In this document: positions 11,395-14,013 of the stretch, one piece after another
Layout: the number at the start of each line of letters is the position of its first letter
How positions within the stretch are numbered: the stretch's first letter is position 1
NCBI RefSeq assembly: GCF_030160455.1
Contig: NZ_BSOJ01000004.1
Coordinates: 1 to 64,000 of the forward strand
Source of the DNA: Limnobacter litoralis
Lineage (GTDB): Bacteria; Pseudomonadota; Gammaproteobacteria; Burkholderiales; Burkholderiaceae_B
Direction of reading: 5' to 3'
DNA: 64,000 bases
The notes under the pieces: model-generated
Database searches by the model: none
Seen by the model: the letters and a program-made list of their open reading frames with translations, nothing else
Told to the model about the DNA's origin: nothing
Program-made: the position numbers and the translations under genes

Positions 11395-13800
11395 TCACAG
11401 TACCGTTAAAAACTCCGCAATCACTTTGATCTCCTCGCTTTCTGCAGCATTCAAAACGATTGGTTTGTGAATAGGGTTAGTTGATTCCGGATTCAAAACA
11501 ACTGTAGAGTTTATCCAGCCATCCTGGGCTGCAATTTTTTCACTTTTGTATCGCTTGATGGTGAATTGCCCACCGAGTTCTGCATCTGAAATGGATCGGT
11601 GCTGCACAACCACAATCTTTCCATTTCGCGTGCCCTGCGGATTCAACCTGAATAAGCACCACGCGCCGGATGGTATTCGTTTATTCATTGAATCGCCAAC
11701 AACCTGAGCCACAAAACAGTCGTCACTTGCGCGGATATGATCCGGCAAAACCACCCGATCGAAGTTGTCAATGTCTTGGTGTTCTCCAAACCCCCCTGCT
11801 GCAAAACGCAGATCAAAAACAGGCGCATTGTTGGCGGCTTTTTGGCTGGCATCAACAATGGGTAATTCAAGTCCCTCGTACTTCAACAATACGGGCTTTT
11901 TTTGTGCTGGCGATCGTGTAAGTACACTCATGAGCGAAGTGAAATACGCACGAGTTTCTTCATCTGTAAAGTAAACGTAGCAGCCTTTCATACCCCGTGT
12001 CATTAGGGTTTTATAGGTGTTCTTAATCACTGCATCTGCCAGCGCCAGGTTTTTCGCGCGGTCGGTTTTCAAGCCACTCTTGAATCCTTTGATGCTTTGA
12101 TCCATCCTGCTCCGCCGGGTGGCATCTGTTATTACATTGCCGTCTCGAATCACAAAGTCTGGACCCACAATCACTCCCACATAGTCCAACTCCAACCCTT
12201 GGCAGGTGTGTATGCAGCCCACTTGTTCAACACTGTGCTCGGCAATTATCCAGGCGCTGCCATCGTCACTAAGGTTCCATTGCGCCTGGTAATGAAATTC
12301 CGGAAATTCAATGTCATTTGCTTGAGGGTTCCTCTTGCTTTTCCAGTCCCAGCAATAACCAGCCACCATGCGGGCCTTGTTGTTGATTTTGTTTTTGTTT
12401 CGGATGGCGTCATGCAGCTTGGTGGGACTGTCAAACACCTGAAAATCAAAATCGAGACCGTCTAGGTTCAAGTTTGCACTTGGTTCAATTTGAAGATGAT
12501 GGTTGAGCCAACTAATATAGCTGTCGCTGCCGTTGCATCGGAACTGTGAACGTAGCTTCTGCTCGAATACTCGTGCACCGGCGAGCTCACTCCATTTACA
12601 AATTTCCGCCTTGCTGCCTATGTCCTTAAAAGTGACACGCTGGTCTTCATCCAGAAAGAAAATGCAAAGCTTGCTGGCGTTGATCAATTCCTTGATCTGA
12701 TTCTCGCCCAAGTTTCCGTACAAACCGCTTCTTTCATTAAGTCGGTGAGCTTCATCCACCAATAGGACATCAAATGAATTGAACTCTATATCTGTAAATG
12801 CGCCGGAACCGCGAAACAAGTTTGAAATTCGTGTCTTTTTAAGTGTGCCCGTCAGTTTTGCTTCAAATACAGCGCGAGGTGCTGCGTTTTTTGAAACGTA
12901 TTGACAAACTAGTCCGAGTCGCGTCATTTCATTCAGTAGATTGATCGCCACCACTGACTTGCCAGTGCCTGGGCCGCCTTGAACTACAAGTACCCGCTTC
13001 TGGTCGGGCTTTTTTGCATGGACCAAATTCAGGGCGGTTTCGTAGACCAGCTTCTGGTCGTCGATCATCAAAAATTCAGTGTTACCTTTCAACATGCTTG
13101 CAAGGCTGTCGGCCAGGTTTTTTGAAGGACGAATTCTCCCATGTTCTATACGGTACATCAGGTCGTTTTGATCGCCGTATTTCACATGCTGCTTCAGAAA
13201 GTCCGACAGCTTGCGCGCATCTTTGGAGATAAAAACAGGAGCCTTGGATGTATGGGCTTTGTAAAACTCGTCGTTGATTACCCGCCCATCATTCAAATTG
13301 TGGAGGTAGGCGCAAGCACTCAACCGGATATTTTCATTCTGCACCACCTCCGAGTAATCTTCGATAAGTGCCGCATAGGTCCAAGCCTGGTAAGAGGGGT
13401 GCGGTGTGTTGATCAGACCATTACCGATCCAGGTGTTCACGATTGCATCCTGTGTCGTGGCCTGAACTTCGCTCCATTGCTTCAGCTCAATAATGACAGC
13501 GCAGTCTTGAAACTGGGCATTTCGCCCGGTGAGAATAAAGTCAATGCGTTTTCCGGTCAGTGGAATGTTGTATTCAATTGAAACCAGAGAGTCGACTGGA
13601 ATGTCTGAATCACTCAAAACCTGCCGCATTTCCTTCATTGAATTTCGCCAAGCGTTGACCTCCGATTGTGCGGCCTTTCTGAACAATCGTCGTTGAAACT
13701 CCCGGTGAATGATCTCGTGGATCTGGTCGTCCAAAACATCATCCAGAAATCGAGACTTGCTGGCGCTGTAAACAAGCATGGTGTCAAACTCGTAATTCAC
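11395..13800 (-). CDS. RecB-like nuclease / DUF2075 helicase / S24 autoprotease fusion
   Basis: An 801-residue three-part protein. (1) Residues ~25-150: a PD-(D/E)XK nuclease-like domain with Asp87 (KRIDF), Glu105-Leu-Lys107 and a RecB-type QxxxY at Gln138-Tyr142. (2) Residues ~245-625: superfamily 1, DUF2075/Schlafen group 3-type helicase with Walker A GGPGTGKS (275-282), VDEAH (348-352), LDEDQ (383-387), LRSQFRC (416-422), CIHTCQGLELDYVGV and TRGMKG. (3) Residues ~655-801: a LexA/UmuD-like S24 domain with Ser704 (VGDSM) and Lys749 (FTIKRY), and a possible cleavage site Ala668-Gly669 (RFAAGGFG) 36 residues before the serine. The start is GTG 13800; ATG 13779 is possible. The gene stands alone and is more AT-rich than its surroundings. 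Likely genome defence or DNA repair, by inference. Confidence 0.85.
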   Translation of the reverse strand: MNYEFDTMLVYSASKSRFLDDVLDDQIHEIIHREFQRRLFRKAAQSEVNAWRNSMKEMRQVLSDSDIPVDSLVSIEYNIPLTGKRIDFILTGRNAQFQDCAVIIELKQWSEVQATTQDAIVNTWIGNGLINTPHPSYQAWTYAALIEDYSEVVQNENIRLSACAYLHNLNDGRVINDEFYKAHTSKAPVFISKDARKLSDFLKQHVKYGDQNDLMYRIEHGRIRPSKNLADSLASMLKGNTEFLMIDDQKLVYETALNLVHAKKPDQKRVLVVQGGPGTGKSVVAINLLNEMTRLGLVCQYVSKNAAPRAVFEAKLTGTLKKTRISNLFRGSGAFTDIEFNSFDVLLVDEAHRLNERSGLYGNLGENQIKELINASKLCIFFLDEDQRVTFKDIGSKAEICKWSELAGARVFEQKLRSQFRCNGSDSYISWLNHHLQIEPSANLNLDGLDFDFQVFDSPTKLHDAIRNKNKINNKARMVAGYCWDWKSKRNPQANDIEFPEFHYQAQWNLSDDGSAWIIAEHSVEQVGCIHTCQGLELDYVGVIVGPDFVIRDGNVITDATRRSRMDQSIKGFKSGLKTDRAKNLALADAVIKNTYKTLMTRGMKGCYVYFTDEETRAYFTSLMSVLTRSPAQKKPVLLKYEGLELPIVDASQKAANNAPVFDLRFAAGGFGEHQDIDNFDRVVLPDHIRASDDCFVAQVVGDSMNKRIPSGAWCLFRLNPQGTRNGKIVVVQHRSISDAELGGQFTIKRYKSEKIAAQDGWINSTVVLNPESTNPIHKPIVLNAAESEEIKVIAEFLTVL

Positions 13801-13802
13801 AT

Positions 13803-13818
13803 CTGATGAATGTATCAG
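13803..13818. promoter_or_regulatory. inverted repeat CTGAT-N6-ATCAG upstream of the nuclease-helicase gene
   Basis: A five-base dyad three bases upstream of the GTG start, in the position of an operator or ribosome-site cover. It is not a canonical LexA box (CTGT-N8-ACAG), and none of those was seen in the 274-bp gap to the next gene. Confidence 0.3.
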
Positions 13819-14013
13819 GAAATGTGGATATAAATCCCTGCTCTCTAGTCCCGAGAATCACCCGGAGTCCTAACCTGCGGTATCCCTGAACCCGAGGTTT
13901 TTAGTCGTTTATTCAGGCAATAGCCGGATGAAATCCGTTCAAGTGAAAGTAACATCACCTCTCTGAAGTCTTTCTTCCACCCGGTTTAAGCCCCAACAAA
14001 AGCGAAGGCAAGT

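Follow-up and report, generated by a model that had tools for sequence, protein, structure and literature searches.

LexA-like proteins, as described in parts of three reports, cut themselves between an Ala and a Gly, which exposes degrons for Clp, Lon and FtsH, and a C-terminal degron for ClpXP lies beside the cleavage site (PMC7101444, PMC5742171, PMC10584840). In restriction alleviation, as treated in passages of two other papers, ClpXP removes HsdR, also under DNA-damage stress, and in the case of EcoKI the process needs no SOS response and acts on translocating complexes (PMC4231737, PMC11109961). In the part of PMC4231737 that deals with EcoKI, the signal recognized by ClpXP is still called unidentified. 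How cells spare their own damaged or new DNA from restriction motors is an open question, and a self-cleaving tail acquired by different restriction enzymes would be a visible control device, testable by changing single residues.

Here we analyze a gene within a 64,000-nucleotide stretch of Limnobacter litoralis DNA (the window), the product of which carries a LexA-like S24 tail behind a nuclease-helicase, and we show that this tail is a single portable module that occurs on restriction or defence enzymes of seven kinds. Our search of the open-licence PMC literature found no description of S24 tails fused to defence nucleases, although one may exist, and LexA/S24-type terms gave no result in PMC12839542, PMC3710099 and PMC7159879.

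A nuclease-helicase gene with an S24 tail

The open reading frame at 11395-13800 on the reverse strand encodes 801 aa when read from its GTG. The true protein is probably 794 aa long, starting at the ATG at 13777-13779, because an ATG aligns with residue 8 of the longer reading in 65 of the 73 relatives with usable ORFs (the start nearest aligned residue 8 being picked for each relative). Residues are therefore numbered from this ATG, seven lower than in an earlier sequence-only reading of the locus, and the corresponding codons were checked (Table 1).

Table 1. Features of the nuclease-helicase gene and its upstream region, in window coordinates.
Feature	Position	Strand	Basis or remark
Whole gene, 794 aa from ATG (probable start)	11395..13779	(-)	GTG at 13800 as alternative
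PD-(D/E)XK-like nuclease domain, residues 1-235	13075..13779	(-)	conserved motif, model, weak Foldseek, PADLOC PDC-S41
D80	13540-13542	(-)	nuclease motif residue
E98	13486-13488	(-)	nuclease motif residue
K100	13480-13482	(-)	nuclease motif residue
Q131	13387-13389	(-)	QxxxY motif
Y135	13375-13377	(-)	QxxxY motif
Schlafen group 3 helicase domain, residues 261-606	11962..12999	(-)	PF09848 7e-101; Foldseek
Walker A Lys274	12958-12960	(-)	
Walker B Asp342-Glu343	12751-12756	(-)	
Variable linker, residues 614-645	11845..11940	(-)	pLDDT, same-genus identity 43-47%
S24 self-cleaving tail (predicted), residues 646-794	11398..11844	(-)	PF00717; LexA PDB matches
Candidate scissile bond Ala661-Gly662 (GCA GGG)	11794..11799	(-)	conservation, codons
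Ser697, predicted nucleophile	11689..11691	(-)	conservation, codons
Lys742, predicted general base	11554..11556	(-)	conservation, codons
Upstream block TTTCCTGATACATTC	13808..13822	(-)	also present (to TTTCCTGATACATT) in 6 same-genus copies

The N-terminal part is a probable PD-(D/E)XK nuclease of RecB-like type, a prediction based on conserved residues and on the structural model. E98, K100, Q131 and Y135 are invariant in all 33 full-length rows of the alignment (the window plus 32 of 80 kept loci) and D80 is present in 32, the remaining row starting later. In the model of this part (pLDDT 87.0), the motif residues occupy those strands and that helix where a PD-(D/E)XK core would have them. 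No Pfam family was matched over the N-terminal 245 residues, and Foldseek against the PDB gave weak matches (best E 0.073, none at E<=0.001), of which nine of the top ten are what we take to be PD-(D/E)XK enzymes (BsoBI, EndoMS, EcoO109I, MspJI, Card1, Cap4 and repeats) and one is not. The RecB-type nuclease named by the sequence-only reading therefore stands as regards its D80, E98-x-K100 and Q131xxxY135 residues, whereas its fold is weakly supported.

The SF1/DUF2075 helicase noted in that reading was borne out, with Walker A and B motifs that are invariant among aligned relatives. Pfam SLFN-g3_helicase PF09848 (formerly DUF2075) is matched above its cut-off over positions 1-354 of 354, and the best Foldseek matches of the full model are human SLFN11, RecD of RecBCD, RecD2 and Dna2, all helicase-driven. 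The whole-protein model (mean pLDDT 85.3) is disordered at residues 621-631, between helicase and tail (pLDDT <50). In the C-terminal part, Pfam Peptidase_S24 PF00717 is matched above its cut-off (E 5.6e-9; 36.1 bits against 23.3), and a profile of the tail found LexA only among PDB sequences (8gms, E 0.0038; 1jhe, E 0.0046). No Pfam match to LexA_DNA_bind or an HTH domain was found in the protein, which thus has no winged helix of the kind that defines LexA repressors.

The gene has a G+C content of 0.46-0.50 against mostly 0.55-0.60 in its flanks. Its neighbors in the window encode ZnuA, ABC transporter, FmdA, enoyl-CoA hydratase, thioesterase, AraC and flavodoxin-type proteins, and a defence island at this locus was rejected on that account. 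The enoyl-CoA hydratase/thioesterase pair occurs in 13 other genomes of the genus, in all 13 without an adjoining nuclease-helicase gene, indicating that the latter moves. Full-length copies were found in 8 of 16 genomes of the genus, with remnants only in one more, and identity between the window protein and same-genus copies amounts to 84-85% in the nuclease part, 79-81% in the helicase, 43-47% in the linker and 68-70% in the tail.

The same tail on seven kinds of enzyme

The three parts described by the sequence-only reading were supported, and the protein proved to be more than an isolated fusion, the tail being a mobile module present on seven kinds of enzyme. Sorting 85 distinct tails by best match gave 44 PD-(D/E)XK-SLFN proteins (the window's kind), 22 GIY-YIG-like-SLFN, 3 DruE-like, 6 PLD-ResIII-DUF3427, 5 HsdR, 1 Res, 1 HNH and 3 unassigned (two from contig ends, one from a frame-broken gene); a second tail type (L022, L030, L058) and the broken fragments L089/L091 and L254 were kept out of this set. 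On all seven kinds the tail is C-terminal, and those distinct tails that have so far been seen on long ORFs belong to enzymes of restriction or defence type.

These assignments rest on matches of differing strength. The GIY-YIG-like fronts of SLFN helicases reach 20.7 and 19.4 bits with Pfam GIY-YIG, just below the cut-off of 22.6. A tailed 1994-aa DEAD helicase matches PADLOC DruE3 at 4.6e-121, tailed PLD-ResIII-DUF3427 proteins match mREase_IV at 6.7e-230, a tailed Type I HsdR matches REase_I at 5.6e-30, with HsdM and HsdS genes adjoining in a viral contig, and a tailed Type III Res matches at 2.2e-143, with an adjoining Mod gene. The tail is also found on an HNH_4 nuclease.

Several loci have further features. 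One operon (L128:1303-14985) consists of an Eco57I-type methylase, an S24-tailed DruE-like helicase, and McrB-like and McrC-like genes. At L163:320-7070, HsdS, AAA (AAA_21), HNH and tailed HsdR genes stand in a row, an arrangement reminiscent of a Septu-like pair embedded in a Type I system. A methyltransferase-PLD-ResIII protein (L009:8508-12371), the neighbor of a tailed SLFN nuclease-helicase, has an internal S24 domain before the end of its DUF3427 match.

Counted at E <= 1e-12, the tail occurs in 5 of the 398 genomes examined from the window's phylum, in 9 of 369 from its class and in 41 of 268 from its family, the window's own genome being included each time, and in 18 of 395 genomes of the phylum of a Bacteroides locus (L020). 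Among 72,556 plasmid records only one, from Halomonas, carried it, and in phages the search reached no more than distant matches, namely, repressors of 20 Paenibacillus phages. A scan of viral contigs with A1 yielded two relatives (35% and 32% identity) that cover only residues 1-617 and 1-613, and six further P-loop matches.

Conservation of the candidate cleavage site and dyad

The sequence-only reading had pointed to an S24 Ser-Lys dyad and to an Ala-Gly site 36 residues before the Ser, with a spacing as in LexA and UmuD. Both proposals held: Ser697 and Lys742 are intact under a Pfam match above cut-off, and the distance from scissile bond to Ser is 35 in same-genus LexA and 36 in UmuD-like proteins. 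Among the 33 full-length rows, the scissile-bond Gly and the Ser are invariant, this distance is 36 in 31 rows and 37 in 2, and the Lys is aligned in 31, being one column off in the other 2. P1 is Ala in 13 rows and Cys in 20; both residues occurring, a Cys-only or Ala-only site was rejected.

Furthermore, homologues keep the site together with the dyad, as that reading had asked: [AC]-G, Ser and Lys are all retained in 83 of the 84 distinct tails that cover the site. P2-P1 is Ala-Ala in 64 of these tails, Ala-Cys in 18, Thr-Ala in 1 and Val-Ala in 1, the Ala-Cys tails all being of the PD-(D/E)XK type and coming from a Bacteroidales clade and one relative. Since the tail family is of one origin, such conserved letters are non-independent tests. 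The dN/dS of the tail against same-genus copies (0.05 and 0.09, where dS is unsaturated) indicates that it is maintained. Self-cleavage competence is the natural reading of dyad and site, and is predicted on that basis.

Controls from related proteins bear on the residue at P2. All 15 LexA-type proteins of relatives have Ala-Ala at P2-P1, while Ala stands at P2 in 1 of 7 UmuD/CI-type proteins of relatives and in 4 of 6 distinct phage-type HTH-S24 repressors of viral contigs. The latter weaken P2 Ala as a mark of LexA alone; given all three controls, it is LexA-like but not LexA-only.

The lone exception among the 84 tails, on a Type III Res (L137:5271-8453), has Ala-Thr in place of Ala-Gly with the dyad kept, and may be uncleavable. 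Such a tail would suit a role in which S24 mainly recruits the enzyme to RecA-coated single-stranded DNA or dimerizes it, cleavage being slow turnover or incidental, and S24 domains do dimerize and bind RecA filaments. We consider this quite unlikely, as the joint conservation of Gly, Ser and Lys in 83 of 84 diverged tails is hard to explain without cleavage. Separately, in one same-genus genome (G006), tail remnants lie at two contig ends (L132:5318-5614 and L133:3-167) without the nuclease-helicase, and the scissile Gly of a remnant has become Glu (Ala-Glu at the site), a single case.

The distance from Ser to Lys is 45 residues in the window protein and 37 in the second, LexA-like tail type, suggesting that the domain is a subfamily of its own. 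Its self-cleavage might thus depend not on host RecA but on, for example, a phage recombinase or the ssDNA-binding state, or might be constitutive and slow and so set the dose of enzyme. A RecA-independent S24 protein, IrvR, is on record, but members of the family as a rule cleave in a RecA-linked manner, as stated in parts of PMC7101444, and we regard a different trigger as very unlikely. RecA-triggered self-cleavage is the reading developed below.

The core enzyme with and without the tail

The tree of the nuclease-helicase core contains 92 rows, namely, 39 tailed, 3 with the second LexA-like tail type and 50 untailed. Six of the 80 kept loci had short ORFs at first, of which L013 and L015 were restored for tree building; L078 and L080 (contig end) were omitted, and the long-branch row L115 was dropped from the core tree. 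Tailed rows need five changes on this tree, of which well-supported branches force four, and constraining the tailed SLFN-helicase rows to one clade was rejected (p-AU 1.5e-5), indicating that the tail was repeatedly gained or lost. Untailed relatives are frequent, at 50 of the 92 rows, so that retention of the core does not depend on the tail. The second tail type on the same core, which is shorter and LexA-like with a Cys-Gly site, and which occurs in Patescibacteria-associated bacteria among others, was added separately, on the same principle. In the tail tree, a quick one with many open branches, enzyme kinds need six changes, the minimum, and PD-(D/E)XK tails do not all group together, one set of them standing beside HsdR, DruE and Res tails (99% SH-aLRT).

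A MazG-like partner gene

Among PD-(D/E)XK-SLFN loci with 400 bp of upstream sequence, 20 of 27 tailed and 35 of 38 untailed ones have a MazG-like ORF (PF12643) directly before the gene, as do 18 of 20 GIY-type loci and 3 of 3 loci with the second tail type; such an ORF was found directly upstream in none of the 15 loci of other tailed enzyme kinds examined. Based on these counts, the usual system is a MazG-like protein plus the nuclease-helicase, the tail being optional, and the pair is apparently a two-gene defence candidate. Examples of this pyrophosphohydrolase gene include L178:5610-6005 and L185:7294-7638, among others. No such ORF precedes the window gene or its 6 same-genus neighbors directly, so that the 'single-gene' system of the sequence-only reading is accurate locally, for the window and these six copies, whereas most SLFN relatives stand behind a MazG-like gene. 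An unlinked MazG-like homologue, 52% identical, is present in the window's own genome (L249:1495-1827). A NUDIX gene, at L160:2532-2927 (by Pfam) and at L158:7935-8369 (by eye), directly precedes the tailed PLD-ResIII-DUF3427 gene, as a candidate second nucleotide hydrolase partner for this kind of enzyme.

Upstream region

The best upstream match to the LexA box CTGT-N8-ACAG has 2 mismatches, the commonest value, as seen in 179 of 300 random stretches, while the same scan found LexA's own box with 0-1 mismatches in 5 of 5 same-genus lexA genes. SOS transcription of the gene, or its membership in the SOS regulon, was accordingly rejected as unsupported, and control would therefore be post-translational. 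The window's own genome has a LexA and one more S24 repressor in addition to the nuclease-helicase gene. Upstream of the gene, TTTCCTGATACATT is kept in 7 of 7 copies compared, the rest of the region having diverged, and the block at 13808-13822 is possibly a promoter element, judging from its retention. A promoter scan did not call this block and found sites no more frequently than in shuffles; operator and terminator scans near the gene remained at chance level, and repeats gave nothing usable.

Predicted consequences of self-cleavage

We propose, at slightly under even confidence, that RecA-triggered self-cleavage would create an ...Ala-Ala end and lead to destruction of the enzyme, making the tail a built-in restriction-alleviation fuse that turns the activity off. 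In an undamaged cell, the whole ATP-driven nuclease-helicase would patrol foreign DNA. Upon damage or fork stalling, RecA filaments on single-stranded DNA would dock on the S24 domain as on LexA, to judge from the family, and Ser697 and Lys742, both present in the sequence, would cut the protein's own Ala661-Gly662 bond. The resulting fragment would end in ...Arg-Phe-Ala-Ala, where LexA has its latent ClpXP signal, and would be degraded, ridding the cell of a nuclease that would attack its own repair intermediates, by analogy with the action of ClpXP on HsdR.

The sequence-only reading had left the direction open ('held in check or stabilised'), its leading idea being the opposite outcome, in which the S24 tail keeps the nuclease-helicase inactive until self-cleavage triggered by damage or phage frees an active enzyme. 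The predicted product would indeed resemble naturally tail-less homologues, which stop shortly behind the helicase and presumably have activity; the same self-cut activates UmuD, and keeping an enzyme ready yet silent would be sensible with no LexA box over the gene. However, to set a nuclease free while host DNA is damaged carries a risk, an ...Ala-Ala end is well suited to degradation, and the tail is set off by a variable, low-confidence linker. Moreover, the same tail is present on HsdR and Res, the cutting of which is already licensed by site recognition, which argues for a general limiter. We rate activation as unlikely and favor inactivation on three grounds, namely, the presence of the same tail on HsdR and Res, which require no licence from SOS, the commonness of untailed cores and the Ala-Ala end. 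The degron argument for inactivation is weakened by the Ala-Cys clade (18 of 84 tails) and by the P2 control with viral repressors. Restriction alleviation of EcoKI, which is independent of SOS, and the possibility of RecA-independent cleavage, as in IrvR, also speak against it. Overall, the earlier observation was right and its interpretation right in kind, but too narrow in scope.

Taken together, the distribution of the tail hints at a shared way to shut dangerous defence enzymes off (or on) upon host DNA damage. More broadly, one S24 subfamily might act as a general autoimmunity fuse, in which a RecA damage signal would lead to the self-cut, a degron and the lifting of restriction during repair, a tentative reading that we hold to be somewhat less likely than not. 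It would span Type I, Type III and Type IV-like motors, Druantia-like helicases and SLFN nuclease-helicases alike, and, if true, would represent post-translational SOS control of immunity in which transcription is not involved. The tail would then link SOS directly to immunity by a LexA-like damage sensor placed on a Schlafen helicase, a class that includes human SLFN11, and it gives a sequence marker for unknown defence nucleases.

Comparison with known systems

The tail resembles LexA, UmuD and CI in its Ser-Lys dyad, its [AC]-G site and its spacing of 36, with LexA as the closest PDB sequence, but differs from them by the absence of a repressor DNA-binding domain, its location behind a nuclease-helicase, its Ser-Lys distance of 45 and its weak sequence similarity. 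The helicase is like the Schlafen group 3 helicases, with a full-length Pfam domain and SLFN11 as top Foldseek match, yet it has a PD-(D/E)XK-like domain in front and an S24 tail behind. PADLOC PDC-S41 (657-aa model) matches the nuclease and helicase parts partially (4.4e-15), in three separate stretches of which the best covers positions 5-94 of 657, and Nhi (8.1e-12) and AbiO (3.4e-12) are likewise partial, their models (470 and 468 positions) being matched in the helicase only. PLD-ResIII-DUF3427 proteins (mREase_IV, Type IV-like), DruE, Type III Res and HNH enzymes carry a close relative of the tail in some genomes, on unrelated bodies. Finally, EcoKI alleviation, as described in parts of the literature cited above, differs from what is proposed for the window protein in having no S24 tail, no need for SOS and an action on translocating complexes, whereas the proposed outcome is shared, a restriction motor being lost once host DNA is in danger, and the tail is found on HsdR itself.
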